Positions 4,108 through 35,064 of a DNA stretch of 64,000 bases are shown piece after piece (position 1 is the stretch's first letter; every line of letters starts with the position of its first letter). The DNA lies in assembly GCF_011006175.1 (NCBI RefSeq), contig NZ_CP048795.1:1356491-1420490 (forward strand), read 5' to 3'. A program made the position numbers and the translations under genes. The DNA is from Hydrogenobacter sp. T-8. GTDB lineage: Bacteria; Aquificota; Aquificia; Aquificales; Aquificaceae. The notes below the pieces were generated by a model. It was not told where the DNA came from. It was given only the letters and a program-made list of their open reading frames with translations, and did no database searches.

Positions 4108-4117
4108 GCTGTTAAAT

Positions 4118-4125
4118 AGTATAAT
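4118..4125. promoter_or_regulatory. overlapping divergent -10 elements, dnaX/clpC
   Basis: The octamer AGTATAAT gives TATACT on the minus strand, 10 bases before the dnaX ATG, and TATAAT on the plus strand. No good -35 is seen for either. dnaX has no Shine-Dalgarno sequence and would be nearly leaderless from here. For clpC this would leave a leader of about 50 bases. Confidence 0.5.
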
Positions 4126-4130
4126 CCTTA

Positions 4131-4158
4131 TTGCAAAACTTTTTTCCTTCGTTATCTT
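4131..4158 (+). promoter_or_regulatory. candidate sigma-70-type promoter of clpC
   Basis: TTGCAA (4131-4136) is followed after 16 bases by TATCTT (4153-4158), a reasonable -35/-10 pair. It lies 24 bases before the clpC ATG. The GAGGTG Shine-Dalgarno sequence at 4171-4176 sits 6 bases before that start, so clpC has a conventional leader. Confidence 0.4.
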
Positions 4159-4182
4159 TATCCTATAAGAGAGGTGTGAGAG

Positions 4183-6618: not shown

Positions 6619-9600
6619 GAAGCTGGGCTGGGTTTTCTAGGGCAAAGACCTTGGATACCCCGCCCCTTCCGCTAACGCCTATGACCTTGTCTGCAAAACT
6701 TGCGAGGACTTCCCTCAACGTGACCACTATAAACTGAGCTTTTTTTGACCTCTCCTTTATAAGCTCTCCCACCCTTCTGGCGTTTGCTTCATCAAGGTGT
6801 GCATCCACTTCGTCAAAGTAATAGAAGGGTGATGGTCTGTAGTCTTGTATGGCGAAGATAAGAGAAATAGCAGCAAGTGTCTTTTCACCACCAGATATGG
6901 CTTCTAAGTATTGCACCTCCTTTCCTCTTGGCTTTACCACCAAGCTCACACCACCAGAAAATGGGTCATCCTCTCTCTCAAGCACCATGTATGCCCTTCC
7001 ACCAGGAGAAAGCTCAGAGAAAATGTGCCTAAGGTTTCTATCCACTGCCTGAAAGGTTTCCATAAAGGCTCTTAGCTTTTTTGTCTCTATTTCCTGTATG
7101 AGTTCTTTTATAGACTCCTTTTCCTCTTTTAGCTTTTTGTATCTTTCCTGATAGTCTGTGTATCTCTCTTCATATTCCCTGTATTCCTCCTCCGCCTTGA
7201 AGTTCACACCGCCGATAGAAGAAAGTTCCTTCAGTATTCTTGAAAGCTCTTCTTTGAGTTTACCAAACCCCTCCTTTACCTCCACCACATCCCCCTCATA
7301 GTGGAGGTCTCTCAATTTGCTGAGGCTCTCTTCGTATCTCTCTTCAAGTTTTGCCCTTTCAAGCCCAAGTCTATGAAGCTCTTCTCTTATGGTCTCTTCG
7401 TGAAACTTCAACTTTCCAAGTTCTGACTGAAGGATTCTTTGCTCTTCTTCCAGTTTGTCCTTCTTTCTGTATAGTTCGTAAGCCTGCATATTGACCTGCT
7501 TTAGTTCTTCTTCTATCTCTTCTCTCTTTCTGTGTAGTCCTTCCAGCTCTTGGTTTAGTTTTTTAATCTCCTCCTGGGCACTGTCAATAAAGGCGAGTTT
7601 TCTGCCTATTTCCTTCTGTAAGCTCTCTCTTTCCATCTGTAGCTCTTTTAGTTTTAGCTGTTTTAGGTGTATGGACTCTTTTAGCCTTTCTATCTTTTGC
7701 TTTTGTTTTTCATATTCCCGTCTTAGGTCTTCCACTCCAGACTCCTTGTAATGGGTCAGAACCGACTGCCTCTTTATGTTGAGGTTTTCCAGCTTTTCCT
7801 CAAGATAAGCTATTTCTTCTTTTAAAGCCTGTGCTTTCCTTTTGGTCTCTTGCGACTCTTGTTCCAATATCTGAAGGTATTCTTCCGCCTTGCGAAGTTT
7901 CTCTTCTATATCTTTAAGTCTCTCATAGCCAGCTTTATCGGACTCTTCCACTTCCTCAAGCCTTCTTTTAAGGATGGCTATGATGCTTTCCTTTTCAAGA
8001 AGCTCATCCCTGAGAGCTTTTAGGAGCTTTTCCTCCCTTTGTTCCTCTTCCTTCAATTTCTGTTCAAGCTCCAAAAGTCTGTTTAGCTCCTCAAGATAAA
8101 AGGCTCTTCCAAGTTCACCCCTTTCTTCGCTATGCCCCCCACTTATGACGCCACTTTTCTCAAAAAGCTCTCCATCAAGGGTGACCATCCTATATGCATT
8201 CCCAAGGGACCTCGCAGTCTCAAAGCTGTCCACAAGGAGCGTGTCTCCAAAGATAAACCTTACTGCCCTTTCAAACCTTCTGTCGTATTCTAAGAGGTTC
8301 ACCACAAAGTCTATAACACCCCTTTGTCTTGGTGGATAAGGTGGCAGGTTCGTTTCCCTTATCCTGTTCAAGGGTATAAAGTTTAGCCTTCCCCATTTTA
8401 GCTCCTTGAGCCTCTGTATGCACCTTTTTGCTACCTCTTCATCTTGAACCACCACATAGGAGAGCCTTCCACCCCCTGCGGTCTCAACCGCTCTGAGGTA
8501 TTCAAGGTCTTTAACTCTTATAAGGCTTGAAGCTCTGCCGTAAACTCCTTCTATGCCCTCAAAGGGTAGGTCTTCTGGTGGCATGCTTGCCAGCCTACCC
8601 TTAAGCATGGATACCTCCTTAATGATTTCTTCTCTTTCTTGTCTTATTTTCCTGAGCCTTTCCTCTTGGCTTTGGTATTTATCCTTCTTTGCCCTTATGG
8701 ACTTCTCTTCCTCCTTTAACATCTTCTGGTAGTTTTCCCTCTTCAGAAGGGACTCGCCCATGCTTGCCTTTATTTTTTTCTCCTCCTCCCTTAACCTTTC
8801 CATATCTTCTCTAACTTTCTCCTTTTTAAGCTCCAGCTCTTTCAGTTTCAGTTCCATCCTTGAAAGCTCTTTCCTTGCCTCCGCCAAAGTATTAGAAAGC
8901 TCTTTTAGTTTCTCCTCTGTCCTTTCCATCTCCTCAAGGGAAACCTTTAGGCTCTCCTCCCTTTCTTTTATACTCTTCCAAAGAAGGTTTGTAGCCTCTT
9001 CCAAGCCCAAGAGTTCCATCTCCTGCCCCTCAATCTCTCTCAGAAGCTCTTCTTCTTCCCTTTTTAGAGACTCCCTCTGGGATTCAAGAGAGCCTATCTG
9101 TTCCTGTGTATAGAAGACTTCCTTCTCAAGGTTTTCAGTTTTCTTTTTATGTTTTTCTATCTCTTGGCTGAGGACTTCAATAGACTGCGACAGCCTGCCA
9201 ACCCTTTCTCTATAAGGAAAGAGACTCTCGCTTACGCTCTTTAGCTCCTCTTCTAAAAGGGTGAGCTTTTCTTCGTATTCTTTAAGCATCCCTTTGAGTT
9301 TTCCAAGCTCTTCCTCCTTCTGAGCCATAACTTGGGACACCTGCTGCAGTGATTTTTGAAGGTCATAGGCGGTCTTTAGATTGAGCTTTATCTCTAAAAT
9401 TCTTCTCTTTTCTTCTAAGTCTCTGTATAGGTTTAGCCTCTTTAGCTCCTCTTTGAGCTTTTCCATCTGCACTTCCATCTCATCCATAAGAAGCCTAAGC
9501 TCCCTTAGTTTTAGCTCCACCTCTCCAAGGTCCGCAAGAGCCTTTTGCTTTTTCTCCTCATACTCTTCTATACCCGCTATCTCCTCAAGGAGCTTTCTCC

Positions 9601-10069
9601 TCTCCACAGGCGTCATCTTCAAAAACCTTACTATGTCTCCTTGAAGCACCACATTGTAGGCGTTTTCGTATATGCCAGCCTTAGAGAGAAAGTCCATCAA
9701 ATCCCTTTCCCTTACCACCGCACCGTTTATTCTAAAGACCGTTCTCCCATCCTGATAGACTTTCCTTGAGATAACTATATCTTCTTCCTGAAGAGGGAAA
9801 AGCCCGTAGTTTTTAAAATGCACCTCCACATAGGCGTAATCCGCTCTGTCGGAGTTTTTTGAGTATATAAGGTAAGAGAGGTTTTTTGCCCTAAGGGTCT
9901 TTGCAGTAGCTATGCCAAGGCAAAAGGATATGGCATCACCTATATTAGACTTGCCCGCACCATTTGGACCAACAATACCTATGAAGCCCTGACCTAAGGG
10001 TATCTCTACCCTCTCTTTTCCGTAAGATTTAAACCCCTCTAAGGTTATTTTTTCTATCCAAGCCTTCAC
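6608..10069 (-). CDS. smc: chromosome segregation protein SMC
   Basis: At 1153 residues this has normal SMC length. Walker A GPNGAGKS is at 34-41. Two very long E/K/L-rich coiled coils flank a hinge at roughly 500-660 that contains the AETAGGGRLSYVVV-type glycine region. The C-terminal head carries the signature SGGEK near 1059 and Walker B YYFDEVD at about 1083-1089. It condenses and helps segregate the chromosome with ScpA/ScpB, which are not in the window. The start is GTG at 10069; a TATACT -10 element lies 8 bases before it and there is no Shine-Dalgarno sequence, so the mRNA is probably leaderless. Confidence 0.95.
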   Translation of the reverse strand: MKAWIEKITLEGFKSYGKERVEIPLGQGFIGIVGPNGAGKSNIGDAISFCLGIATAKTLRAKNLSYLIYSKNSDRADYAYVEVHFKNYGLFPLQEEDIVISRKVYQDGRTVFRINGAVVRERDLMDFLSKAGIYENAYNVVLQGDIVRFLKMTPVERRKLLEEIAGIEEYEEKKQKALADLGEVELKLRELRLLMDEMEVQMEKLKEELKRLNLYRDLEEKRRILEIKLNLKTAYDLQKSLQQVSQVMAQKEEELGKLKGMLKEYEEKLTLLEEELKSVSESLFPYRERVGRLSQSIEVLSQEIEKHKKKTENLEKEVFYTQEQIGSLESQRESLKREEEELLREIEGQEMELLGLEEATNLLWKSIKEREESLKVSLEEMERTEEKLKELSNTLAEARKELSRMELKLKELELKKEKVREDMERLREEEKKIKASMGESLLKRENYQKMLKEEEKSIRAKKDKYQSQEERLRKIRQEREEIIKEVSMLKGRLASMPPEDLPFEGIEGVYGRASSLIRVKDLEYLRAVETAGGGRLSYVVVQDEEVAKRCIQRLKELKWGRLNFIPLNRIRETNLPPYPPRQRGVIDFVVNLLEYDRRFERAVRFIFGDTLLVDSFETARSLGNAYRMVTLDGELFEKSGVISGGHSEERGELGRAFYLEELNRLLELEQKLKEEEQREEKLLKALRDELLEKESIIAILKRRLEEVEESDKAGYERLKDIEEKLRKAEEYLQILEQESQETKRKAQALKEEIAYLEEKLENLNIKRQSVLTHYKESGVEDLRREYEKQKQKIERLKESIHLKQLKLKELQMERESLQKEIGRKLAFIDSAQEEIKKLNQELEGLHRKREEIEEELKQVNMQAYELYRKKDKLEEEQRILQSELGKLKFHEETIREELHRLGLERAKLEERYEESLSKLRDLHYEGDVVEVKEGFGKLKEELSRILKELSSIGGVNFKAEEEYREYEERYTDYQERYKKLKEEKESIKELIQEIETKKLRAFMETFQAVDRNLRHIFSELSPGGRAYMVLEREDDPFSGGVSLVVKPRGKEVQYLEAISGGEKTLAAISLIFAIQDYRPSPFYYFDEVDAHLDEANARRVGELIKERSKKAQFIVVTLREVLASFADKVIGVSGRGGVSKVFALENPAQLLTG

Positions 10070-10077
10070 AGTTTAAT

Positions 10078-10085
10078 AGTATAAT
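10078..10085. promoter_or_regulatory. overlapping divergent -10 elements, smc/diguanylate cyclase
   Basis: The same octamer AGTATAAT as in the dnaX/clpC gap. TATACT on the minus strand stands 8 bases before the smc GTG; TATAAT on the plus strand stands 5 bases before ATG 10091 and 11 before ATG 10097. The whole gap between the two start codons is 21 bases. Confidence 0.55.
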
Positions 10086-10090
10086 TTAAT

Positions 10091-11314
10091 ATGGCAATGA
10101 ATAGATATACAAAAACTGTAGAAAGGGATAGGTTGGAGGAATTGAAAGGAGGGCTTTTAAAAATACTAAAGAGATTCCTAACAGAGGAGTCCTATAAAGT
10201 CATTGAACTCAAACACTTAGATGGTTTTTTGAAACTCTTAACATGCGAGGACTTTGATAGGAAAAGTTTTAGGAGGCTGAGGGCTATATCAAAGTTCCTT
10301 ATAGGCTTGCGTATTCCAGAAACAGCCTTAATACAAGCCTATAAGCTTATAAAGAACTACGCACTTTTAGAGGGGGACGATAAACTTATGTCAAAGATAG
10401 AATTTATATTCAAAAACCTATATAAACCTTATTTAATTTTGCATAAACTGGAAAGACTACAAGATGTTCACTTTCATTTAGAGGGTGACCTGTTATACCA
10501 AATGAATAAGTTAAAAGAAATCTACCTTAAAGAGCACAAAAGGCTAATTGGTAATATATTCAGCGATGACAGGGTTTTAAACTTAGATTCAGAAGCGGAC
10601 TCACTGCTTTCTTCACTGGAAGCTTACTTTAAGGATAGTAAAGTTTATAGCAGACTTTTAAGCTTACACGAGCTTTATAAAAGAACTCTTACATCTATTG
10701 CGGTTGTTGAAAGCGACTTTATAAGCCTGTATACACTTACAAAAGATGTAGAGCTTATATTTAAGGATATAATAAACCTTATAGATGAGGCTATAATAAG
10801 TCTTCTTTCAGAGACCGCCTTCTTAGACGTGCTTACAGGGGTGTATAGTAGAAACTACCTTCAGCTGATTCTTGGAAAGGAAATAAGCTTTTGCAAAAGA
10901 CATAACATACCAATCTCGGTTATACTTTTGGATGTGGATGATTTCAAATTAATAAATGACAAATACGGTCATGACGTGGGTGACCTTGTGCTTAGATTCT
11001 TAGGAGAGTCCATAAAACGCATAATTAGGTCTTCAGATATACCAGTAAGGTATGGAGGTGAGGAGTTCCTCATACTACTGCCCTTTACTTCTTTAGAAGG
11101 AGCCTATACAGCAGGTGAAAAAATAAGGGCTTATTTTGAAAGAAACATCTTCACACACAATTCTTCATCTATAACTATAACCATAAGTGCGGGTGTTGCC
11201 CAAATAAAAAATTTTGAAAATCCATGGCAGGATATTAAAAGAGCAGACAAGGCTTTGTATATGGCTAAGTCTCTTGGTAAAAATAGGGTAATGATCGCAA
11301 GCGATGATATCTGA
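10091..11314 (+). CDS. diguanylate cyclase (GGDEF)
   Basis: A 407-residue soluble protein. Residues 1-235 are helical and unlike any sensor domain I recognise; 240-407 form a GGDEF domain with active-site GGEEF at 322-326 and an inhibitory-site RSSD at 313-316, five residues before it, so it should make cyclic di-GMP and be product-inhibited. Two in-frame starts exist, 10091 and 10097. Because the -10 hexamer ends at 10085, a normal transcript would begin near 10092, which favours ATG 10097. The gene heads a plus-strand run that includes infC, a second cyclase and radA. The input signal is unknown. Confidence 0.88.
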   Translation: MAMNRYTKTVERDRLEELKGGLLKILKRFLTEESYKVIELKHLDGFLKLLTCEDFDRKSFRRLRAISKFLIGLRIPETALIQAYKLIKNYALLEGDDKLMSKIEFIFKNLYKPYLILHKLERLQDVHFHLEGDLLYQMNKLKEIYLKEHKRLIGNIFSDDRVLNLDSEADSLLSSLEAYFKDSKVYSRLLSLHELYKRTLTSIAVVESDFISLYTLTKDVELIFKDIINLIDEAIISLLSETAFLDVLTGVYSRNYLQLILGKEISFCKRHNIPISVILLDVDDFKLINDKYGHDVGDLVLRFLGESIKRIIRSSDIPVRYGGEEFLILLPFTSLEGAYTAGEKIRAYFERNIFTHNSSSITITISAGVAQIKNFENPWQDIKRADKALYMAKSLGKNRVMIASDDI

Positions 11315-11729
11315 GCTTTTCCTATGTATTTATGCAGGCTCTCTTTTCTGTATGGTTTTTTTGGTTGCACCAACACTCCTAAGGACCAGCGAGAATAAAA
11401 ACCTTTTAGGAAGCCTATACGGAAGGGTGCTTTGGAGGTTTTACAAGGTTGCTTTTTTTATGCTTTTGTTTTATCTTATCTTAGGTAATGCAAAACTTGA
11501 TGCTATACTTCTTATGCTGGGTCTTGGGTTGAACGTGGGGACTTCATACTGGCTGAAAAACTACAAGAGAAGCTTAGGGAACATAGACCTTCTTGATTAC
11601 GATGAACCCAGAAGGGTAATCTTTAGAAGGGTTTCCATGCTTTCAACCTTTATTCTTCTTACTAACTTCTTGCTTTCTATGTATGTGCTTATAAAACACC
11701 TAAAAGGAGGTTCACTTGCAGGAGTATAG
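11304..11729 (+). CDS. small DUF4149-like membrane protein
   Basis: A 141-residue protein with four predicted membrane helices, beginning MISELFLCIYAGSLFCMVFL, which resembles the DUF4149 family of inner-membrane proteins of unknown function. A polar loop with the sequence DYDEPRR lies before the last helix. The start overlaps the upstream cyclase by 11 bases and its end overlaps infC by 14, so the three genes are likely cotranscribed. Nothing in it indicates a catalytic role. Confidence 0.65.
   Translation: MISELFLCIYAGSLFCMVFLVAPTLLRTSENKNLLGSLYGRVLWRFYKVAFFMLLFYLILGNAKLDAILLMLGLGLNVGTSYWLKNYKRSLGNIDLLDYDEPRRVIFRRVSMLSTFILLTNFLLSMYVLIKHLKGGSLAGV
11705..11710 (+). promoter_or_regulatory. 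strong Shine-Dalgarno before the TTG start of infC
   Basis: AGGAGG lies 5 bases before the TTG codon at 11716. It fixes this TTG as the infC start. Unusual start codons are a known feature of infC, allowing IF3 to repress its own translation. Confidence 0.7.
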
Positions 11730-12231
11730 AGTTAACAGACAGATAAAAGCTAAGGAGGTAAGGTTAATAGACGAAAACGGAAAGCAGGTGGGCATAGTTC
11801 CACTGCAGGAGGCTCTTAGAATAGCCAGTGAAAAGGGTCTTGACTTAGTAGAAGTAGCACCTCAGGCAAACCCTCCCGTTTGCAAGATACTGGATTATGG
11901 TAAGTTTCTCTATGAGCTAAAAAAGAAGGAAAAGGAGGCAAAGAAAAAACAAAGAGAGCATGCTATTGAAGTAAAGGATATGATGCTTTCGGTAAGAATT
12001 GACGAGCACGACCTTAAGGTAAAGCTAAAGCACATGAGAGAGTTTCTCATGGATGGAGACAAGGTAAGGGTAAGGATTCGCTTTAGAGGAAGAGAACATC
12101 TCCACCCAGAGCTTGGTGATAAGTTAGCAAACAGGATAGTGGAAGAGTTATCCGATGTGGGACAACTTGAATCTCCAATAAAGAAAGAAGGAAACTTTTT
12201 GATCTTTGCCCTACTTCCTAAGAAGAAATAA
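11716..12231 (+). CDS. infC: translation initiation factor IF-3
   Basis: The 171-residue product has the two IF3 domains: an N-terminal domain beginning YRVNRQI and containing VAPQANPPVCKILDYGK, a lysine-rich linker, and a C-terminal domain with FRGREHLHPELG. It binds the 30S subunit and checks initiation codons. The gene starts with TTG behind a strong AGGAGG, consistent with the family's autoregulation through a non-AUG start. It is not next to rpmI/rplT here, the usual partners in many bacteria; instead it sits between a membrane protein and a diguanylate cyclase. Confidence 0.95.
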   Translation: MQEYRVNRQIKAKEVRLIDENGKQVGIVPLQEALRIASEKGLDLVEVAPQANPPVCKILDYGKFLYELKKKEKEAKKKQREHAIEVKDMMLSVRIDEHDLKVKLKHMREFLMDGDKVRVRIRFRGREHLHPELGDKLANRIVEELSDVGQLESPIKKEGNFLIFALLPKKK

Positions 12232-12243
12232 AATTCTAATATT

Positions 12244-14727
12244 ATGCTAAGCCTGAGGGTAGGTGAGCTTGTTAAAGGTGAAGAACCGCTTATCTCTTAC
12301 GAGTGCAGTCTAAGGGAAGCCTTCGAGAAAATGAGAGAAAAGGGAAGGGGTTATATACTCCTTATGAGAGAAAAATATCCAGCAGGTATACTAACAGAAA
12401 GAGACCTTATTAGACTTATTGAGCAAGGTGTCTCCTTTGAAGAAAGAGCCATAGATTATGCCTCAAAAAGACTAATTCATGTTAGAGATTACAGAGACCT
12501 ATATTATGCCCTTAGCCTTATGGTAGAAAACAACATAAGAAGGTTAGTGGTTGTAGATAAGGATGGTAACTTTCTTGGAACCCTTACCATGGAAGAGGTT
12601 TTGGCTCAAGCGGAGGAAGATATATTTAAAAAGAAGCTTAAGGTCAGAGAAATACTCTTGGACAAGGAATTTGTCTGGGTTTCTGCGAAAACAACCCTTT
12701 CTGAGTGTTTAAGGCTTATGAAGGAAAAAAATATCGGTGCCCTACCGGTGCTAAAAGAGGGTATGCCTGTAGGCATAATAACGGAGAGAGATATAGTTAA
12801 GCTCTTTGATAGGATCAACCTATCAGACCCTGTGGAGCTTTATATGAGCAAGCCAGTTATAACCATAAATGAGGACGCTCTGGCGGAATTAGCCCTAAGG
12901 ATTATGGAGGAAAATAGGATAAGAAGGCTTGTGGTTGTGGACGATAAAGGTTTTGCGGTAGGTATAATAAGCAACAGAGATATTGCGAAAAACGCTTACG
13001 AAAGCTATTGGAAGTTCCTTGAGACCAAATTAAGGCATGCAAAAGATGTGCTTAATCTCCTACCCGAACCCACCTTTGAAGTGCTTGACCTATTCTCAAG
13101 CCAAGTTATTGTGTGGATGAATGCAAAGGCTATAGAACTCTTTGGTAGCCTTATAGACCATGATATAACAGAGGTAATTCCAGCAAAGGACTGGTCCTAT
13201 ATATACTCAACACTTTTAAAAGATAGAAGGGTTGAGAGACAGAGGTTTAATATTGGGGACAAAACCTATGAACTATCCGCCAGTTATCTCTTTGTGGAGA
13301 CAGAGAAGGTCAAAGGAAGAATAAAGCTGATGCTCAGAGACATCACTCAGGACCTGCACTCACAGAGAATAATGGAGAGGGAGTTAAGTAACTATATGAG
13401 GATTATGAACTCTACAGAAGATATGATAATCGTATACGAATCGGATAGTGGAAAAATAAAGTTTGTAAACAGGGCGGCGATAAGAAAGCTCGGCTATACG
13501 GAGGAAGAGCTCAAAAACATGACCATATTTCAGATAGTGGATGCAGACCCTGAGTTTATAAGGCAAAACATACAAAGAATTGTAAGAAAAGATGAGGTCA
13601 TAAGAGGTAGGAGGTTTTACAAGGACAGCTATGGGAACAGACTACCAGTGGATATAACTGCCACAAAGGTGCATATGAATAGCGTTCCATACATACTTAT
13701 AGTGGCGAGAGATATATCGGATAGACTAAAATTAGAAGAGGAGATAGAGAGAAAAACAAGGGAGCTTGAAAACCTACACGATTTTATCCTTAACCTAAAC
13801 AGATGTAGCTCAGAGGGCGAAGCTTACAATCTTTTGGCACATATGCTTGTAAAAGTTGCTGGGGTGGATGCCCTTGCAATATACAGAATAAACCCATCTT
13901 TGAATAAGGTCGTTGACAAACTATTTTATGGAAGTATGGAATACGCAGAATGTCTTGAGGAAGGTGAAGAGCCTTCTGCGTGTAAGGTTTTCCAAAGTGC
14001 CCAGCCTTTTCTTGTTAGAGATAAAAAAGCCTATTCATGTCCTCTTTTCAAGTCCGAATATGGCTCTTATATGTGTATGTCTGTAGTATCTGGAGGAAAA
14101 ACCATTGCACTGCTAAGTATGGTATCTCAGAAGGAAGACTTTTTTGATAGAGAGAAACTGGACTTTATAGAAAACATAGTTAACACCTTTGCACCCTTTT
14201 TGTCTAACCTAAGACTTATAGAGATAAACAAAGAGCTATCCATAAGAGACCCTCTCACAAACCTCTATAACAGAAGATTCATTACAGAGTTCTTGCATAA
14301 AAAGATAGAAGAGGCAAAAAGGACTAAGTCCCAGTTTGCTTTACTGCTTTTGGACCTTGACCACTTTAAAAAGATAAACGACACTTATGGACATCAATTC
14401 GGCGACCTGTGTCTAAAAGTTCTTTCTGACGTTCTAAGAGACACAGTCAGAAGCATGGATATAATAGGAAGATGGGGAGGCGAAGAGTTTGTGGTTATTT
14501 TGCCAAATACTGGAAGGCTAGAAGCGGTTGAAGTTGCAAACAGGATAAGGGAAGGTTTGAAGAAAAAGCTCCTCTACTCGGATAAGGGTATACCAGTAAG
14601 CATGACCGCAAGCATTGGTGTTGCAGTTTTTCCAGAGGATGGAGAGACTGTGGATGACCTTTTCAAGGTGGCGGATGATAAGCTGTATCTCGCAAAAAGT
14701 GAAGGAAGGGACATGGTAATTCCATGA
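12244..14727 (+). CDS. multi-sensor diguanylate cyclase: CBS x4, PAS x2, GAF, GGDEF
   Basis: An 827-residue soluble protein. Residues 1-245 hold four CBS motifs (two Bateman pairs, each with ILTERD/IITERD or TMEEV-type loops), which usually bind adenine nucleotides. Two PAS-like domains follow (about 265-365 and 380-490), then a GAF-like domain (about 505-655) with clustered cysteines, and a GGDEF domain with GGEEF at 745-749 and the inhibitory-site RSMD at 736-739. It probably couples energy state or redox to cyclic di-GMP synthesis. TAAAAT stands 9 bases before the ATG and no Shine-Dalgarno sequence is seen. Its stop overlaps the radA start (ATGA). Individual signals are inferred, not shown. 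Confidence 0.88.
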   Translation: MLSLRVGELVKGEEPLISYECSLREAFEKMREKGRGYILLMREKYPAGILTERDLIRLIEQGVSFEERAIDYASKRLIHVRDYRDLYYALSLMVENNIRRLVVVDKDGNFLGTLTMEEVLAQAEEDIFKKKLKVREILLDKEFVWVSAKTTLSECLRLMKEKNIGALPVLKEGMPVGIITERDIVKLFDRINLSDPVELYMSKPVITINEDALAELALRIMEENRIRRLVVVDDKGFAVGIISNRDIAKNAYESYWKFLETKLRHAKDVLNLLPEPTFEVLDLFSSQVIVWMNAKAIELFGSLIDHDITEVIPAKDWSYIYSTLLKDRRVERQRFNIGDKTYELSASYLFVETEKVKGRIKLMLRDITQDLHSQRIMERELSNYMRIMNSTEDMIIVYESDSGKIKFVNRAAIRKLGYTEEELKNMTIFQIVDADPEFIRQNIQRIVRKDEVIRGRRFYKDSYGNRLPVDITATKVHMNSVPYILIVARDISDRLKLEEEIERKTRELENLHDFILNLNRCSSEGEAYNLLAHMLVKVAGVDALAIYRINPSLNKVVDKLFYGSMEYAECLEEGEEPSACKVFQSAQPFLVRDKKAYSCPLFKSEYGSYMCMSVVSGGKTIALLSMVSQKEDFFDREKLDFIENIVNTFAPFLSNLRLIEINKELSIRDPLTNLYNRRFITEFLHKKIEEAKRTKSQFALLLLDLDHFKKINDTYGHQFGDLCLKVLSDVLRDTVRSMDIIGRWGGEEFVVILPNTGRLEAVEVANRIREGLKKKLLYSDKGIPVSMTASIGVAVFPEDGETVDDLFKVADDKLYLAKSEGRDMVIP

Positions 14728-27062: not shown

Positions 27063-28172
27063 ATGGAACTCCATCAAAAAATAAGGCTTATGTCAAGGCT
27101 TGCCAGCTTTGAGAGGGATGGGGATTATAACTTTGAAAGTTGTGTCTTTTACGCTTCCACACCCAAAGGTAAAGTGCCTATCCTCAAGCTCATGCAAACA
27201 ACCATGTGCGATAAAAACTGCATGTATTGTGCCTTTAGAAGAGACAGGGACGAAACAATAAGGATAGCACTAAAGCCTGAAGAAATAGCAAAGGGGTTTA
27301 TGGAACTATACAAGGCGGGAAAGGTAAGCGGGCTTTTTCTTTCCTCGGGCATTTTCGGAAATCCAGACTTTACCATGGAAAGAATGATAGATACCGCAAA
27401 GATACTTAGAGAGAAATATGAATTCAAAGGCTACATACACCTTAAACTCATGCCCGGGGCTTCTTTGCAAAGCGTGGAAGAGGCAGTTAAAGTGGCAAGT
27501 AGAGTCTCCATAAACCTTGAGACCTCAAAGGAAAAGAGACTCAAAGACATAGCAAAGGGTAAAAGCATACTTCAGGATATGCTTCCCAAAATAGAGTATG
27601 TGGATAGGCTTATAAGAGGTCAAAAGGGTAAAAGTCAGATAAGTCAGATGATGGTAGGCGTTGGAGATGAAAAGGATGAGGAGATAATAAAAGCGGTAGA
27701 TTATCTAAACAAACGCTTTAGACTGGGCAGGATATACTTTAGTGCCTTTTTCCCCGTGAAAAACACCCCGCTTGAAAATAGACCACCGGAGAACCCAAAG
27801 AGAGAGCACAGGCTTTATCAGGTTGATTTTCTTATAAGAGAGTATGGCTTTTCTTTTGAAGAGTTAAAACCAGTACTAATAGATGGCAATCTCCCTCTTG
27901 ACAAAGACCCAAAAACTGCATGGGCGGAGGCAAACATGCACCTTTTCCCAGTGGAAATAAACACCGCAGACTACGAAATGCTTATAAAAGTCCCTGGCAT
28001 AGGAAAGGAGACCGCAAAGGAGATATTAAGGAGAAGGAGAGAAAAGAATCTAAGTTCAATTCAAGATTTGAAAGGTATTAGAAACCTAAATAAGATACTA
28101 AATTATGTAGTCATAAATGGAAGATATTTTTGGCAAAATTCTTCATCTTTCCCATCTATTACACAGCTTTAA
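27063..28172 (+). CDS. radical SAM protein with C-terminal helix-hairpin-helix (DNA modification/repair type)
   Basis: A 369-residue protein. The radical SAM cluster motif is CDKNCMYC (C-x3-C-x2-C) near residue 49. A TIM-barrel half follows, and the C-terminus has a helix-hairpin-helix (LIKVPGIGKETAKEILRRR). This combination matches the putative DNA modification/repair radical SAM family (TIGR03916), which usually sits beside a DUF4130 uracil-glycosylase-like partner; no such partner is in the window. It may act on DNA bases. The mRNA looks leaderless. Its last 30 bases overlap the convergent hydrogenase-like small subunit gene. Confidence 0.85.
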   Translation: MELHQKIRLMSRLASFERDGDYNFESCVFYASTPKGKVPILKLMQTTMCDKNCMYCAFRRDRDETIRIALKPEEIAKGFMELYKAGKVSGLFLSSGIFGNPDFTMERMIDTAKILREKYEFKGYIHLKLMPGASLQSVEEAVKVASRVSINLETSKEKRLKDIAKGKSILQDMLPKIEYVDRLIRGQKGKSQISQMMVGVGDEKDEEIIKAVDYLNKRFRLGRIYFSAFFPVKNTPLENRPPENPKREHRLYQVDFLIREYGFSFEELKPVLIDGNLPLDKDPKTAWAEANMHLFPVEINTADYEMLIKVPGIGKETAKEILRRRREKNLSSIQDLKGIRNLNKILNYVVINGRYFWQNSSSFPSITQL

Positions 28173-28643
28173 AAATCCCTCTATTATATGCCTTGGCTCT
28201 GGTGGACATCCAGGTATGTGAAGATGAACTGGTATATGCTTCCCTACTGGACCCTCCACCGCATAGGAATCTTTGAAATAACTACAATCCTTGGTGCAGT
28301 CTCCTAGGGTTACAATAAATTTTGGGTTTGGTGCGTTTTCATATGCCTTTATCATGGGGACGAGCATGTTCCTTGTTACACAACCAGTTATTAAAAGCAC
28401 ATCCGCATGTTTCGGAGAGGCGACAAACTTTATGCCAAACCTTTCTATATCGTAGTATGGATTGTTGAGATTAGCAACCTCCACCTCACAAGCATTACAG
28501 GAGCCAGTATCCACTTCACGGACGAACAGACTGCCACCAAAAACCTTATCTATTGCCTCACGCAGTTCACACAATAACTCTTTGTGTTCTGGCATTATTT
28601 CTTCGGTTTTCAAACGAAAGGCTCTCTTCATAAGAAAAAGCAT
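28143..28643 (-). CDS. Ehr/Hyf-type complex small (NuoB/HyfI-like) Fe-S subunit
   Basis: The 166-residue protein aligns with HycG/HyfI and complex I NuoB. All four ligands of the proximal [4Fe-4S] cluster are present: CNAC supplies two (C-x2-C, as in hydrogenases), then TGCVTR, LGDC and PGCPP. It would carry electrons to or from the large subunit's active site. The ATG at 28643 has an AGGAGG ribosome site that overlaps the stop of the large subunit gene, so the two are a tight pair. Its end overlaps the radical SAM gene by 30 bases. Confidence 0.9.
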   Translation of the reverse strand: MLFLMKRAFRLKTEEIMPEHKELLCELREAIDKVFGGSLFVREVDTGSCNACEVEVANLNNPYYDIERFGIKFVASPKHADVLLITGCVTRNMLVPMIKAYENAPNPKFIVTLGDCTKDCSYFKDSYAVEGPVGKHIPVHLHIPGCPPEPRHIIEGFLKLCNRWER

Positions 28644-28655
28644 AGCTTTCCTCCT

Positions 28656-30143
28656 TTAAAGGTCATTCCCTGCATAAGAAAGGTTCATACTTTTGTTAAC
28701 AAGCGGGAAATCCGCTATTATATCTCCAAGAACTGCATACTGTATTGCTGGCCAGTTTCTAAAGGATGGGTCTACATACTTTAATCTGTATATTTTTCCA
28801 TCCTTATCAAACATCACAAAGAAAAAGGCATTGCCTCTGGGTGTTTCTGCGTTCCCAATATTCCAAGAGTAGGGTTCAGGTTTTTGCATCTTGTTTGCTT
28901 TTTCTGTATGCTCTGGCAAATTCTTGAGAAAAAGTTTTATAAGTCTTATGGACTCATAAATTTCCCTCGTTCTTACAAGAAACCTTGCCATAACATCCCC
29001 TTCTTCAAAAGTATGAAGGTTTACATCCTTGTATGCTAAATATGGAAGCTCTACGCGCGTATCCCTTTCAAGACCAGAAGCTCTGGCACAAACACCGCAA
29101 AGAGACAACTCCATAGCTGTATTTTTGAAAACTCGCCCTGTAGTTTCAAACCTATCCCTTACAGAAGGGGTTTCCAGGGCAAATTCCTCTACCTGTCTTA
29201 TCTCCTCCTCTATAACTCCAAGTAAGTCAATCAAATCCCTTTCCCTATTCCTATTAAAGTCAACCTTCACAGTTCCGAGTTCACACACATCAAACATAAA
29301 CCTGTGACCTGTAAGACTCTTATTAAACCTCATAAGTTTCTCTTGTAATGAAAAAAGGTGCTGAGCGACCAGTGGAAAAGCTATGTCCATGAACAGCCAA
29401 CCTATATCTCTAACGTGGTTCCAAACCCTTTCAAGCTCTCCAAGTATAGACCTTATAACCTTCACCCTTTCAGAAGGTTCAAGTCCAAGAAGTGGTTCAA
29501 CCGCGTTAAGGTATGCTATAGATATATTAACCGCATTATCTCCGGAAATCCTGTTTACAATCTTAAGCACCTGTTTGGGGTCCTTCCCTTCACACAGCTT
29601 TTCTATTCCCCTATGCTTCCAGAAGTGCCTTATCTCCAATTGAAGTATGGCTTCGCCAGCAAGGGAAAACCTAAAATGACCGGGCTCTATTATGCCTGCA
29701 TGTATTGGACCCACAAGTATCTCATTAACTCCATCTCCCATAACCTTTTTATAGGTATAATGACCATAAACCTTAAATTCTGGCTTTTCTCCTTTATAGT
29801 CCTTTCTAAGGGGGTGTATGGCTGGGTCCCAGTTTTCTGGATATAGCATAAGCCTTCTACTATCGGGATGTCCTTCGGGCAAAAGCCCAAACATATCCCT
29901 TATTTCCTTCTCGTAGTTCTTTGAGGATGGACAAAGGGAAACTATAGAGGGAAATTTATCCTCAGTCCTTAGGATGAATACCCTTACACTTCCCTTCTTC
30001 ATAAAGAAATACCTAACCGCAAATCCTCTCCCCAACTCTCTCTCATCACTTCCTACCATACCAAACAGATAGAATCCTTCCCTGATAGCGTCTCTAACCC
30101 TGCTGTAAAGGTTACTACCTTCTACCTCTTCTTCAATGAACAC
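28656..30143 (-). CDS. hydrogenase-related large subunit (HycE/HyfG-like) without Ni-binding cysteines
   Basis: A 495-residue fusion of a NuoC-like domain (about 1-118) and a NuoD/HycE-like domain. The family's nickel ligands come from RxCGxC and DPCxxC. Here the first is R-I-S-G-D-N (198-203) and the second D-P-S-F-R-N (458-463): all four cysteines are replaced by Ser, Asn, Ser and Asn. The segment HAGIIEPGHFRF and the peptide KHRGIEKLCEG are otherwise Hyc-like. It therefore cannot bind a NiFe centre in the usual way and fits the energy-converting-hydrogenase-related (Ehr) type. The start is GTG, 7 bases after a TATAAT. The reaction is unknown. Confidence 0.9.
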   Translation of the reverse strand: MFIEEEVEGSNLYSRVRDAIREGFYLFGMVGSDERELGRGFAVRYFFMKKGSVRVFILRTEDKFPSIVSLCPSSKNYEKEIRDMFGLLPEGHPDSRRLMLYPENWDPAIHPLRKDYKGEKPEFKVYGHYTYKKVMGDGVNEILVGPIHAGIIEPGHFRFSLAGEAILQLEIRHFWKHRGIEKLCEGKDPKQVLKIVNRISGDNAVNISIAYLNAVEPLLGLEPSERVKVIRSILGELERVWNHVRDIGWLFMDIAFPLVAQHLFSLQEKLMRFNKSLTGHRFMFDVCELGTVKVDFNRNRERDLIDLLGVIEEEIRQVEEFALETPSVRDRFETTGRVFKNTAMELSLCGVCARASGLERDTRVELPYLAYKDVNLHTFEEGDVMARFLVRTREIYESIRLIKLFLKNLPEHTEKANKMQKPEPYSWNIGNAETPRGNAFFFVMFDKDGKIYRLKYVDPSFRNWPAIQYAVLGDIIADFPLVNKSMNLSYAGNDL

Positions 30144-30156: not shown

Positions 30157-30168
30157 ACACTTGTTCTG

Positions 30169-30177
30169 TGGTATAAT
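30169..30177 (+). promoter_or_regulatory. extended -10 for the membrane-subunit operon
   Basis: TGGTATAAT (TG, one base, TATAAT) ends 10 bases before ATG 30188. The upstream in-frame TTG 30161 and ATG 30176 lie before or inside this element, so ATG 30188 is the likely start. Confidence 0.5.
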
Positions 30178-30187
30178 GATTATTATC

Positions 30188-32044
30188 ATGTCCGAAGGTT
30201 CAAGTAGTGGAAGCCTAAGCGTTTTCAAACACGCACCACTTGTTGCCTCATCTTTTATAGCCTTATCCCTTTTGCTTTTACCAAGGGAGTTCACAGTTCA
30301 GCTGGGCTTTTTTGAGGCATACTTCAAACTTGACGCTCTATCTATATTTTTTTCTTCTCTTCTTGCTTTTGTATCTTTTTATGTTTCTATATACACCATT
30401 GGATATGTTAGTGAGTTAAAGGGAAAAGCTCATCTTGTCTTAATCCTTACAGGGGTATTTATACTTTCCATGTTTTTCACTATTATAAGCAACGATCTAA
30501 TTAGCTTTCTCTTCTTTTGGGAGATAATGTCTCTATCTTCTTTTTATCTCGTTATTAGTGATGAGGGGAAAGAAAGCTCAAAGGTAGGATTTATATACCT
30601 TTTAATGACCCATCTGGGAACAGCGTTTATAATTCTTTCTTTTCTTCTTTTATACATAAAAACCTCATCCATGAGTTTTGATAGTTTTCGTGGTTCTGCA
30701 GACCTCTACATTGTATTGTTAGCACTTTTAGGTTTTTCTGTGAAGGCTGGAATAGTTCCTTTTCATGTATGGCTACCCTATGCACACCCTGTAGCACCTT
30801 CTAATGTCTCAGCCCTTATGTCTGGGGTGATGCTAAACACAGCTATCTATGGTATGATGAGGTTTCTTTTTGAATTTTCCTCTTCAAACTTTCTCTTTAC
30901 AAGTCTGCTACTTATCGTTTTCGGTTGTCTCTCTCTTGTGTATGGTGCCATTTACTCTCTTACTGAGTCAAGCGTTAAAAAGTTTCTTGCATACTCTAGC
31001 ATAGAAAACATGGGCTTGTTAGTTATTGGTATGGGTTTGGCTAATCTTGGTCTTTACAAAGAAATTCTGCCCATATACTCTACATCTAAAGCCTTTGTAT
31101 TGCTACATACCTTAAACCACTCTCTTCTAAAAAGCTCTCTCTTTATGGGTGCAGGGGTTATGGTCAAGATGACCCATGAATATAGTATGAACAGGCTTGG
31201 TGGCCTTTCAAAGGCAAGCCCATTGCTCTTTTACCTCATGTTAGTATCTTCTGTCTTTATTTCCGCTCTTCCTCCTTCTAATGTCTTTTTCAGCGAACTG
31301 CTCCTTTACAAAACCCTTTTCTTAGCTCTAAATATCAAAGGTGACCCTTCGTCCTACATACTGATACTTGTGCTTACTCTACTTGCACTGTCTGGCGTTT
31401 TCGTAGGTGCTACCTTTGTAAAGTTTATTGGGGTGGTTTTCTTAGGAAAGTCCAGGGGTGCAAAGGTCTCCAACAAACCAAGCGTAGCTGAACTCTTTGG
31501 AATAGCATTACCAGTCGCCCTTTCTGTTTCAATAGGCATTTATCCATATCCTTTGCTTAGTATCCTTTCTAACATATATTCCCTTTCCCTTCCAGACCTT
31601 AACTACTTACCCTTTAATCTCTTATTCGTGTCCTTTATTCTTTTACTTGTTATTTTCCTCGCCATGAGAAAAAACAGGGCACGCATTTACGAAACATGGA
31701 TTTGTGGACTTGATGAAGAAAATCCATCCGCACAAGCTACTACCCTTTCCCAAACCTATAGCATAAGGAGACTTTTTTCTATGTTTTACTCCACTGTATC
31801 TGAGATAAATTTTGATGCGGAGATAAAAAAGTATTTCAGAAGCAGTATTTTATACAAAGAAGAATTAAAAGATATTTTTGAAGAGAAGATATATAAAAGA
31901 CTTGCTGGTTATATACTTGCCGTCTCAGACCAAATTAGGAAAATACTCCAGACTGGAAATATAAATCTTTACATAAGCTATATATTCCTTACACTTCTTC
32001 TCTGTTTTCTTATTTACATAGTGCTAACAGGAGAAAAACCATGA
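30188..32044 (+). CDS. Ehr/Hyf-type complex antiporter-like subunit (HyfB/NuoL-like)
   Basis: The protein has about 618 residues from ATG 30188, with some 14-16 membrane helices. Pump-type residues are visible: a lysine in the discontinuous-helix region GFSVKAGIVPFHVWLPYAHPVAPS and a further lysine in HSLLKSSLF. A soluble C-terminal extension with charged residues (about 510-600) ends in another hydrophobic helix. It should translocate protons or sodium in the membrane arm. It is the first gene of a four-gene plus-strand operon divergent from the large subunit; its stop overlaps the next gene by 4 bases. Confidence 0.9.
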   Translation: MSEGSSSGSLSVFKHAPLVASSFIALSLLLLPREFTVQLGFFEAYFKLDALSIFFSSLLAFVSFYVSIYTIGYVSELKGKAHLVLILTGVFILSMFFTIISNDLISFLFFWEIMSLSSFYLVISDEGKESSKVGFIYLLMTHLGTAFIILSFLLLYIKTSSMSFDSFRGSADLYIVLLALLGFSVKAGIVPFHVWLPYAHPVAPSNVSALMSGVMLNTAIYGMMRFLFEFSSSNFLFTSLLLIVFGCLSLVYGAIYSLTESSVKKFLAYSSIENMGLLVIGMGLANLGLYKEILPIYSTSKAFVLLHTLNHSLLKSSLFMGAGVMVKMTHEYSMNRLGGLSKASPLLFYLMLVSSVFISALPPSNVFFSELLLYKTLFLALNIKGDPSSYILILVLTLLALSGVFVGATFVKFIGVVFLGKSRGAKVSNKPSVAELFGIALPVALSVSIGIYPYPLLSILSNIYSLSLPDLNYLPFNLLFVSFILLLVIFLAMRKNRARIYETWICGLDEENPSAQATTLSQTYSIRRLFSMFYSTVSEINFDAEIKKYFRSSILYKEELKDIFEEKIYKRLAGYILAVSDQIRKILQTGNINLYISYIFLTLLLCFLIYIVLTGEKP

Positions 32045-32988
32045 ATTTACTTCTTGGTATCATACAGGCTCTTATGGTGCTTATGTTAGCCCCATTCTTT
32101 GCAGGTTTTATTCACAAGCTAAAGCAAAGAATAAGAGGTCAAAAGGGCATAAGCGTCTTTCAACTTTACAGAAACCTCTATAAACTCCACAAGAAAGAAA
32201 TAGTCCTTTCAAAGGACACAAGTTTAGTCTCAAGACTTGCTCCATATTTCTACTTTTTGCCTCATGCTCTACTATGCTTTATGCTTCCCTTTTTCTATGA
32301 AAGCCCTTTACTTGGAAACTCTTCAAACCCTGTTGTTCTTCTATACCTTCTGTCTCTATCTATATTCTTCATGACCCTTTATGCCCTTGATCAGGCAAGC
32401 TCCTTTGGAGCTCTTGGGTCAAGCAGAGAATGGTTTATAAGCAGTCTATCAGAACCAAGCGCGATTTTGCTTTTGTTTTCTCTTTGCATATACACTGGAG
32501 AATTCAATCTAAGCCATGCCTTTTTAACACTAAGCAATGAGCTTCGCTCCTTCTTCTCTGAGCACCCAAGCCGTTTTTCAATAAGCATCCCATTCCTCCT
32601 TTTGTTTACCCTACTAATACTCACGCTTGCTGAGAACGCACGCATACCTTTTGATAATCCAGAAACCCACTTAGAGCTTACCATGGTCCACGAAGCCAAC
32701 ATACTGGAGGCAAGCGGTCCACATCTGCTACTCTTTGAATATGGCTCTTATCTAAGACTTACCCTGTTTCTAAGCATCATGTCCATACTTATCTTTCCCT
32801 TTATAGGTGATTCTACTTTCTATCCTTTGGCTTTTGCCCTTTATCTGTTAAAGATGCTGTTTCTTTGTATACTCATCGCCTTTGTAGAATCTTTCAATGC
32901 GAAGATGAGGCTATTTAGAATTCCAAACGTCCTATCTTTTGCTTTTGTCCTTTCCTTACTTACACTTATACTTTCTATGGAGGCTTAA
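32041..32988 (+). CDS. Ehr/Hyf-type complex NuoH-like subunit (HyfC-like)
   Basis: A 315-residue membrane protein with about eight helices. The loop RIRGQKGISVFQLYRN and the segment ENARIPFDNPETHLELTMVHE are the signatures of the HyfC/HycD/NuoH subunit, which connects the soluble module with the membrane pumps; the acidic residues of the latter loop are conserved. Translation is coupled to the preceding gene (ATGA). It ends two bases before the GTG start of the next subunit. Confidence 0.9.
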   Translation: MNLLLGIIQALMVLMLAPFFAGFIHKLKQRIRGQKGISVFQLYRNLYKLHKKEIVLSKDTSLVSRLAPYFYFLPHALLCFMLPFFYESPLLGNSSNPVVLLYLLSLSIFFMTLYALDQASSFGALGSSREWFISSLSEPSAILLLFSLCIYTGEFNLSHAFLTLSNELRSFFSEHPSRFSISIPFLLLFTLLILTLAENARIPFDNPETHLELTMVHEANILEASGPHLLLFEYGSYLRLTLFLSIMSILIFPFIGDSTFYPLAFALYLLKMLFLCILIAFVESFNAKMRLFRIPNVLSFAFVLSLLTLILSMEA

Positions 32989-32989
32989 G

Positions 32990-33634
32990 GTGGAAAAGTT
33001 AGCGAGTTTTTTTGCTCTTATGGTTTTGGTATCAGCGGTTTTGAATGTTGCATCTCCCTTTTTAAAATTTGCCATAAGACTAAACATGCTACAATCATGG
33101 ATGCTTGCCTTCTATATACTTGTGGTTGCTATAAGCTCGGGTGTCTTCCATCTTTACCTTTCCTTCTTGGCTACTTTAGTTTTTAAGGGCATACTTATAC
33201 CTATTTTGCTCTTTAGAGTTCTTAAAAGAACTGGTAGGGAAAGGGAACTTGATATGGTCATAAGCATACCATCTGCGGTAGTGATATCTGGTATTCTCAT
33301 AATCATATCCGCCATACTTCTTACAAAGTTCGGTGGTCTTGAATTTCTCTTTGGCAGGTTTGTTTTTGTGTCTTCACTATCAACCTTCTTCATAGGTGGT
33401 ATGCTTCTTGTTATAAGAAAAATCCTCTTTTCCCAAATACTTGGGCTTTTAATAATGGAGAACGCCATATTCCTCGCTGCAAATAGTGCAGTTACAGGAA
33501 TGCCTTTGGTGGTAGAGCTTGGTATACTTTTTGACATACTTGTAAGTATACTTATAGCTTCTGTTTTACTGCTTCGCATAATGAAAAACTTTGAAGATAT
33601 TAGAGTTGATGACCTGGAGGTGTTGAAAGAATGA
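32990..33634 (+). CDS. Ehr/Hyf-type complex HyfE-like membrane subunit
   Basis: The 214-residue protein has about seven helices and matches HyfE, the subunit whose C-terminal half resembles NuoK. The glutamate in LLIMENAIFLAA is the NuoK-type membrane residue. The start is taken as GTG 32990 because GGAGG stands 7 bases before it; an ATG at 32939 lies inside the preceding gene and has no ribosome site. It overlaps the next gene by 4 bases. Confidence 0.85.
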   Translation: MEKLASFFALMVLVSAVLNVASPFLKFAIRLNMLQSWMLAFYILVVAISSGVFHLYLSFLATLVFKGILIPILLFRVLKRTGRERELDMVISIPSAVVISGILIIISAILLTKFGGLEFLFGRFVFVSSLSTFFIGGMLLVIRKILFSQILGLLIMENAIFLAANSAVTGMPLVVELGILFDILVSILIASVLLLRIMKNFEDIRVDDLEVLKE

Positions 33635-35064
33635 TTTCAATACTCTTTTTACTACCCGCATTAGGTCTTCTTCTTTCACTTTTGGTAGATGTTCTTATCA
33701 TGTCCTATCTACAGCTTCTTATATCTCTTAGTTTGTTCCTTTCAAGCCTTTACATTTTCTTTCATAAGGAATATTCTACGCATTTATACAATCTCTTTTT
33801 TGTGGACCCTGTGAATTCTTTTCTTCTTTTGACTGTTGCCCTGCTTGAGCTTTTTGTAGTCTTTTACTCCTTTGGCTACATAAGAACAGAAATATCTCAA
33901 GGAATGTCTAAAAGACGTTTTAAGTATTACTATTTTTGGAAAAATGGCTTTATCTTTAGCATGATACTTTCCATACTTTCCAACAATCTTGGCGTGTATT
34001 GGGTTGGATTGGAAGCTACCACCCTAACAACAGCCTTTCTTATAGCCTTCTACAGAAGTAAAGAATCCTACGAGGCTTCATGGAAGTATGTAATAATGTG
34101 TTCTATTGGTATCACATTAGGTCTTTTTGCTATTGTATTACTTTATTATTCAACCGCGCACATATACGGTGAAAGTCTAAAAGCTCTTTCTTTCCTTGAT
34201 ATAATGGTTTCAGTTCAAAAACTTGACAAAGATATACTTTTCCTTTCTTTTATACTTGCCCTTGTAGGCTTTGGCACAAAGGTAGGCTTTGCACCTATGC
34301 ATAACTGGCTTCCCGATGCACACTCTCAGGCACCAAGCCCTATCAGTGTTCTTCTCTCTGGCGTTCTCCTAAACACCGCTTTACTTGGTGTTTTAAGGTT
34401 TTATCAGATAAATGAAAAGGCTGGCGTAGGCTATGCAAGGGACTTTATGATATTCTTTGGTTTTCTTACCCTTTTCCTTGCAAGTTTGATTATGCTAAGG
34501 CAAGGAGAATATAAAAGGCTTTTTGCTTATTCTTCTATGGAAAACATGGGTCTTATAGCTCTTGGCTTTGGTGTAGGTGGCTATGGTGCTTTTGGTGCGT
34601 TTTTTCACATACTTTTTCATGCTATAGCAAAAGGCGTGCTTTTTATGACTTCTGGAAATATACTTTCTGTGTTGCACGAAAGGAGAATTGAAAAGATAAA
34701 TGGACTTTTTAAAGATATGAAAACTACCTCCTTTGTAATGCTTTTAGGCTTAGCCAGTATATCTGGATTACCGCCTTTTTCTACCTTTTTTAGCAAGATT
34801 TACATAATAATTGGTGTTATTCAAAAGAGCCACTTTCTTGGTATTTTAGTTTTGTTTTCTCTTGCGGTAGCCTTTTCTGGAATTTTCTGGCAGATTTTAC
34901 CTATGCTTTCTGGAATTAGTAAAGGAGAAAGAGAAAAAGTTTTACACCCATTTATGATAATAATACCAACATTAATGTTGCTTATATTGATAGCTCTCAC
35001 TTTCTATACGCCAGAGACTTTAACTCAAATTATAAAAATGGCGGTCAACGAGTTATATGGATAG
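33631..35064 (+). CDS. Ehr/Hyf-type complex second antiporter-like subunit (HyfF/NuoN-like)
   Basis: The 477-residue protein has about 14 helices. It carries a GTKVGFAPMHNWLPDAHSQAPSPIS lysine/histidine loop, an acidic residue in GLEATTLTTAF and a later lysine in HAIAKGVLFM, as in HyfF and NuoM/N. It would be the second ion pump of the complex. It ends in a 12-base overlap with the convergent lysA. The operon holds no HyfD and no ferredoxin-like HyfA/HyfH subunit. Confidence 0.9.
   Translation: MISILFLLPALGLLLSLLVDVLIMSYLQLLISLSLFLSSLYIFFHKEYSTHLYNLFFVDPVNSFLLLTVALLELFVVFYSFGYIRTEISQGMSKRRFKYYYFWKNGFIFSMILSILSNNLGVYWVGLEATTLTTAFLIAFYRSKESYEASWKYVIMCSIGITLGLFAIVLLYYSTAHIYGESLKALSFLDIMVSVQKLDKDILFLSFILALVGFGTKVGFAPMHNWLPDAHSQAPSPISVLLSGVLLNTALLGVLRFYQINEKAGVGYARDFMIFFGFLTLFLASLIMLRQGEYKRLFAYSSMENMGLIALGFGVGGYGAFGAFFHILFHAIAKGVLFMTSGNILSVLHERRIEKINGLFKDMKTTSFVMLLGLASISGLPPFSTFFSKIYIIIGVIQKSHFLGILVLFSLAVAFSGIFWQILPMLSGISKGEREKVLHPFMIIIPTLMLLILIALTFYTPETLTQIIKMAVNELYG

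Follow-up and report, generated by a model that had tools for sequence, protein, structure and literature searches.

Energy-converting hydrogenase-related (Ehr) complexes, in which the CxxC motifs are lost, have already been described in Sulfobacillus, Nitrospira, ammonia-oxidising archaea, Margulisbacteria and Geobacter (PMC6349859 for Margulisbacteria; PMC12342949 for Nitrospira moscoviensis; PMC7894505 for Geobacter). According to HydDB, Ehr does not metabolise H2, and the HydDB classifier was trained to exclude the family (PMC5037454). Work on HycE of E. coli formate hydrogenlyase names C531 as a terminal nickel ligand, describes the canopy Asp, D529, as strictly conserved and sets out the residue roles, including that of the proton donor E193, together with the role of the quinone His of complex I (PMC9474812). 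Ehr stands between the hydrogenases and complex I, and the question of its substrate recurs in the nitrifier, Geobacter and Margulisbacteria papers. None of the Ehr papers retrieved describes a directly measured activity. Here we analyse an Ehr locus in a 64,000-nucleotide stretch of the Hydrogenobacter sp. T-8 genome (the window). By its sequence, the locus is a further member of this already described family, and its complex very probably neither makes nor uses hydrogen because all four nickel-holding cysteines of the large subunit have been lost.

Results

The window holds a complete six-gene Ehr set, with S and L on the minus strand and A-B-C-D diverging from them on the plus strand. The large subunit EhrL (28656..30143, minus strand) is an intact ORF of 495 aa with a GTG start and no internal stop, in which a NuoC-like 30 kDa domain is fused to a NuoD/HycE-like 49 kDa domain (PF00329, PF00346); the match to the NiFe-hydrogenase Pfam family is weak and confined to residues 178-244. 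HycE is both its best match among solved structures (7z0s_E, E=6.7e-67) and the best fold match of its AlphaFold model (pLDDT 81, TM 0.84), with complex I next. The small subunit EhrS (28143..28643, minus strand; 166 aa) is NuoB/HycG-like (PF01058, E=3.7e-26; HycG 7z0s_G, E=1.8e-35). On the plus strand lie the HyfB/NuoL-like antiporter subunit EhrA (30161..32044; NCBIfam hydrogenase 4 subunit B, E=5e-130), for which the start region makes ATG 30188 a more likely start than TTG 30161; the NuoH/HyfC-like EhrB, which links the pocket to the membrane (32041..32988; PF00146, E=3.3e-28); the HyfE/NuoK-like EhrC (32939..33634; NCBIfam hydrogenase 4 membrane subunit, E=2e-15); and the HyfF/NuoN-like antiporter subunit EhrD (33631..35064; NCBIfam hydrogenase 4 subunit F, E=1.6e-105). 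The pump residues of EhrA (E121, K195, K273, E379) and EhrD (E128, K217, K295) are conserved, and EhrB has the charged residues common to NuoH (E138, E198, R201, D205, E212, E223). To judge by these residues, the coupling channel of EhrB is intact and EhrA and EhrD are pump-competent antiporter-like subunits; with the antiporter Glu/Lys and the NuoH-type charges conserved, proton pumping by Ehr is plausible.

Across several phyla the commonest order in relatives is A-B-C-D-L-S on one strand. The L-S half is inverted, with divergent starts, in the window and in its nearest relative (L127), whose split cluster occupies 3650-10526. Another arrangement, with B-A inverted against C-D-L-S, was seen at 7352-14513 of L129 (G056), and a diverged cluster from the window's genus (L139, G038, 8869-13893) has S, L, D and C, A and B not being found there; it may be broken, with a transposase-like ORF at the expected A/B place. 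A second EhrD-like antiporter gene in the clusters L064, L089, L093, L096, L104, L109, L116 and L119 suggests variable pumping stoichiometry. The gene for a radical SAM and helix-hairpin-helix protein (27063-28172, plus strand) is convergent with ehrS and shares 30 bases with the ehrS 3′ end; L043 has a similar radical SAM ORF some 5 kb downstream of ehrS. In the genome of the window, regions L142 (G000:C1:295001-315000) and L143 also show a complex I locus in which the NuoK-L-M-N set is duplicated in tandem and, elsewhere, a further complex I locus that is partial. Annotation and Pfam found no NuoE/F/G/I electron-input module in the window.

An earlier note on this DNA had assigned EhrL to the Ehr family and named placement in a tree as a check. 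In a tree of 109 rows, 94 of them Ehr, including the N. defluvii and N. moscoviensis copies (direct homologues at 45% and 43% identity), Ehr forms a single clade (SH-aLRT 100) with HycE adjacent (97) and NuoD apart, which together with the six-gene content bears out that assignment; the position beside HycE involves long branches and is less certain. EhrL, to which a near relative is 71% identical, clusters with the copies of two other genera of Aquificaceae (99), and 12 MAG sequences, one labelled Deltaproteobacteria, come next (100). Relatives at 70% and 64% identity in two other genomes have the same motif residues, which rules out decay of the gene, as the earlier note had held, and likewise a frameshift or sequencing error. 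Among 136 Aquificota genomes, 15 have an Ehr-type protein, as counted from the large-subunit search and the alignment, and 11 further Aquificota matches are genuine group 4 enzymes by alignment of the nickel columns. The remaining Aquificota copies lie at other places in the tree, and one of them (L026) belongs to the same genus as the window, so transfer between lineages is likely. Hosts belong to Aquificota, Nitrospirota, Omnitrophota, Planctomycetota, Campylobacterota and other phyla, and include a Nitratiruptor MAG.

The four Cys ligands by which group 4 [NiFe] hydrogenases are recognised, carried by RxCGxC and DPCxxC, are all absent from EhrL. The earlier note had placed the first motif at RISGDN (residues 198-203; 29535..29552, minus strand), and the alignment agrees: S200 and N203 replace the first and second Cys. 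It had placed the second at DPSFRN (residues 458-463; 28755..28772, minus strand), a peptide correctly located but wrongly assigned. In alignments with HycE and group 4 enzymes and in the profile-profile alignment, DPSFRN is equivalent to the VPTFAN/AATYAN peptide, which nickel-binding hydrogenases also have and which is no nickel site; in genuine group 4 enzymes DPCxxC follows about 28 residues later. We therefore rejected DPSFRN as a nickel motif. The true second site is NLSYAGNDL (residues 487-495; 28659..28685, minus strand), with S489 and G492 in place of the third and fourth Cys. HycE DPCYSC aligns with NLSYAG, tails such as VPTFANIPVMRELFVGMEYADVPAVVISFDPCLSCTAR, taken from the large subunits of 11 genuine group 4 enzymes of other Aquificota, align to DPSFRNWPAIQYAVLGDIIADFPLVNKSMNLSYAGNDL of EhrL without a gap, and the profile-profile alignment sets VPTFANIP on DPSFRNWP and DPCLSC beyond S485-M486. 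In many but not all group 4 [NiFe] hydrogenases, a C-terminal extension is removed by an endopeptidase. The second site of EhrL is formed by its last nine residues, so that the protein ends where a mature hydrogenase ends, and the tail alignment shows no such extension. The replacement is thus Ser-Asn at the first site and Ser-Gly, at the very C-terminus, at the second; the claim that all four cysteines are absent stands, but not that Ser and Asn replace them throughout or that both ends follow one pattern. A reading of L028-L038 as half-degenerate enzymes, with CxxC at one end only, was rejected since their full ORFs carry DPCxxC.

We aligned 95 Ehr sequences with 13 hydrogenases and two NuoD proteins. 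Position 200 is Ser in 94 of the 95 Ehr sequences and Thr in one; position 203 is not conserved in the family (T 50, N 26, H 16, S 3). D202 is conserved in 94/95, and S489, G492 and D494 in 94/94 each. Such constancy of S200, S489 and G492 across many phyla excludes chance. Of each nickel pair, we take one Cys to be the terminal ligand on the basis of established [NiFe] structures; in the alignment both terminal ligands are replaced by Ser in Ehr, and the fourth Cys by Gly. In none of the 95 rows is there a nickel Cys ligand where the columns are filled, which agrees with the earlier reading that this is not a hydrogenase. That Ehr is an unusual hydrogenase that still functions is therefore extremely improbable, for all its overall similarity to HycE and its retention of the residues E153 and R436 described below; HydDB excludes it from the H2-metabolising enzymes (PMC5037454), and expression of the N. 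moscoviensis Ehr is not raised by H2 (PMC12342949).

The same columns bear on another reading, that the former NiFe cavity of EhrL accommodates some other metal with oxygen ligands, or another cofactor, by means of S200, D202, T/N/H203, S489 and D494. S200, D202, S489 and D494 are essentially invariant, and Ser at both terminal nickel positions is unexpected for a site that was simply abandoned. However, the invariance may reflect packing or hydrogen bonding, and no dedicated maturation gene lies beside the window's cluster or was recognised beside those of relatives; we regard this reading as distinctly unlikely.

EhrL retains five cysteines (71, 184, 287, 349, 352), and its sole CxxC is CGVC (residues 349-352; 29088..29099, minus strand), just before R354, the counterpart of HycE R395 in the proton path. 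C349 is found in 15 and C352 in 6 of the 95 Ehr sequences, and genuine hydrogenases have no Cys there. The CGVC/CGIC pair is limited to the window, two Aquificaceae relatives and the MAGs L049 and L050. We therefore rejected CGVC as displaced nickel ligands.

Part of the HycE proton machinery is kept. The proton-donor Glu (HycE E193) is E153, conserved in 94/94, in the beta1-beta2 loop GPIHAGIIEPGHF (residues 145-157; 29673..29711, minus strand) of the HycE and family alignments, and the canopy Arg (HycE R478) is R436. The canopy Asp (HycE D529) is replaced by N487 (N in 85 and S in 9 Ehr sequences). I152 occupies the place of the complex I quinone His, and G201 that of the complex I quinone Tyr. 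Because Tyr, His and canopy Asp are all missing, a complex-I-type quinone site in EhrL is not supported; the residues thus lend no backing to the quinone-like cavity put forward in the earlier note, and they argue against the simplest assumption about the substrate of Ehr. Other nickel-free members of the superfamily, such as complex I and F420H2 dehydrogenase, use quinone-like carriers, and for this reason quinone is still the leading guess for the carrier, at a little under even odds. Some Ehr-bearing bacteria are reported to have no quinone synthesis (PMC6349859), which counts against it.

EhrS has the hydrogenase-type (CxxC) cysteines 49, 52, 116 and 146, invariant in about 80 relatives, and is predicted to hold one [4Fe-4S] cluster. 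No ferredoxin-type subunit (HycF/NuoI) was found in or beside the window's cluster or near most related loci. In each of the eight Omnitrophota loci whose S gene is complete, EhrS has an N-terminal ferredoxin domain; homology to HycF, starting at residue 1, was seen in the one tested, L098 (E=3.8e-19), and six of the eight fusions contain the strict two-cluster motif. Outside these fusions the ferredoxin core is missing from EhrS, the window's included. Nitrospirota EhrS proteins start with MFRIIKKSLKTGVVTGQYP or similar, resembling the HycF start MFTFIKKVIKTGTATSSYP, and in a shuffle control 65 of 80 EhrS proteins, fusions included, gave p<0.01; the window's EhrS is too diverged to score (p=0.11), and L015 does score. 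The simplest reading is that EhrS arose as a HycF-HycG fusion that lost the cluster-binding ferredoxin core and kept the membrane anchor; an independent fusion in Omnitrophota is the alternative. A limited search of the literature did not find this fusion-loss origin, which is likely to be new.

There are two further readings. Ehr might drive reverse electron transfer to ferredoxin, at the expense of the proton-motive force, for the reductive TCA cycle. Its hosts include Aquificota, Nitrospira and the Nitratiruptor MAG, an energy-converting hydrogenase has been proposed as a ferredoxin reducer in Thermovibrio (PMC10052474), and the Omnitrophota EhrS has its two-cluster ferredoxin domain. However, the window's EhrS is without that domain, and with Ehr present in only 15 of the 136 Aquificota it is not required for the cycle; we consider this role unlikely. 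Ehr might instead reduce sulfane sulfur (polysulfide) as does Pyrococcus MBS, with the chemistry taking place at the proximal cluster. The structure of MBS, a relative whose function is not that of a hydrogenase, has been solved (PMC9474812), and MBS matches EhrL in sequence (6u8y_L, E=1e-19), but less well than do HycE, MbhL and bacterial complex I; the NuoI-like ferredoxin subunit, an MBS trait, is among the missing parts noted above, and Ehr is widespread in nitrifiers such as Nitrospira. Such a function is very improbable.

Across 14 Aquificota neighbourhoods, a constant extra gene beside Ehr was not found. The sister MAG group has a Mo-oxidoreductase upstream of Ehr, at a distance of 69-118 bp in four loci and of 1.8 kb in a fifth. 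Downstream of Ehr in L040 is a NuoEF and formate dehydrogenase pair with a bona fide Fdh-alpha (819 bits), and a similar pair, by sequence likeness, lies downstream in L043 as well. An own-genome orthologue of the L040-L045 Mo-oxidoreductase was rejected, the identity to other Mo-enzymes being only about 26%. Probable mercury-methylation genes also lie beside or near Ehr in MAGs (L044, 19589-20713; L045, 12124-13481; L046, 10275-10661): in L045, HgcB scores 115.6 bits, above the NCBIfam cut-off, and the motif NVWCAAGK, or the start of it, was read by eye in an HgcA-like ORF. Fdh-alpha occurs in 3 of 15 Aquificota with Ehr and 2 of 121 without (Fisher p=0.01, uncorrected for kinship), a co-occurrence that is suggestive only. 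Neither the window's genome nor most Ehr-bearing Aquificota have a cytosolic Fdh-alpha above cut-off; the window's genome has a selenocysteine-type FDH-N away from the Ehr locus. The Margulisbacteria paper proposed an FDH-Ehr complex (PMC6349859), and in Geobacter the abundance of Ehr is higher on formate (PMC7894505). We take formate dehydrogenase as a lead: it is the best-supported Ehr partner in the wider family, and none is linked to the locus here.

Discussion

The reading that we prefer, with a probability of roughly 0.55, is that Ehr here descends from a HycE-type enzyme, has no NiFe centre and works as a proton-pumping oxidoreductase on an organic carrier, possibly a quinone. The locus would encode a complete EhrABCDLS membrane oxidoreductase of the complex I and group 4 hydrogenase superfamily, whose formate-hydrogenlyase-like ancestor lost its NiFe centre. 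Because a ferredoxin-type subunit is absent, we infer that a soluble partner exchanges electrons directly with the EhrS cluster. In the EhrL/EhrS pocket, which is without metal in this reading, the electrons would react with the carrier, most likely a quinone held otherwise than in complex I, and E153 and R436 would serve for protons. This reaction would drive, or be driven by, proton translocation, with protons moving via EhrB to EhrA and EhrD.

A bolder reading joins two ideas: that the old NiFe cavity was rebuilt as an oxygen-ligated cofactor or substrate site (S200, S489, D202, D494), and that EhrS came from a HycF-HycG fusion by excision of the ferredoxin core, the complex being fed via the single cluster. 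We regard the combination as something of a long shot; were it true, the rebuilt cavity would bring the complex I superfamily a third chemistry, neither H2 nor quinone. The corrected replacement map (S200, T/N/H203, S489, G492 and canopy Asp to Asn) points experimenters to the residues for mutation.

Among known systems, the P. furiosus MBH and MBS are modular membrane oxidoreductases of the same superfamily; unlike EhrL, MBH keeps its cysteines, and MBS, which shows less similarity, includes a NuoI-like subunit. Ehr shares with complex I (NuoB/C/D/H/K/L/M/N) the fold, the coupling channel, the antiporter residues and the absence of nickel, but it has neither the NADH or NuoI modules nor the quinone Tyr/His, and complex I falls outside the Ehr clade. 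E. coli formate hydrogenlyase-1 (Hyd-3, HycE/HycG/HycF) is the closest solved structure (7z0s). Both have the 30 and 49 kDa domains fused in L, and EhrL keeps the proton-donor Glu and canopy Arg of HycE, whereas Ehr is without the NiFe ligands, HycF, HycB and a formate dehydrogenase in its cluster, and has the canopy Asp changed to Asn. The Ehr of Geobacter, Nitrospira, Sulfobacillus and ammonia-oxidising archaea has the same subunit set, CxxC loss and group 4-like phylogeny. The window's locus differs from these known Ehr in the inversion of S and L relative to A-D, with divergent starts, and in the CGVC of a small sub-clade.
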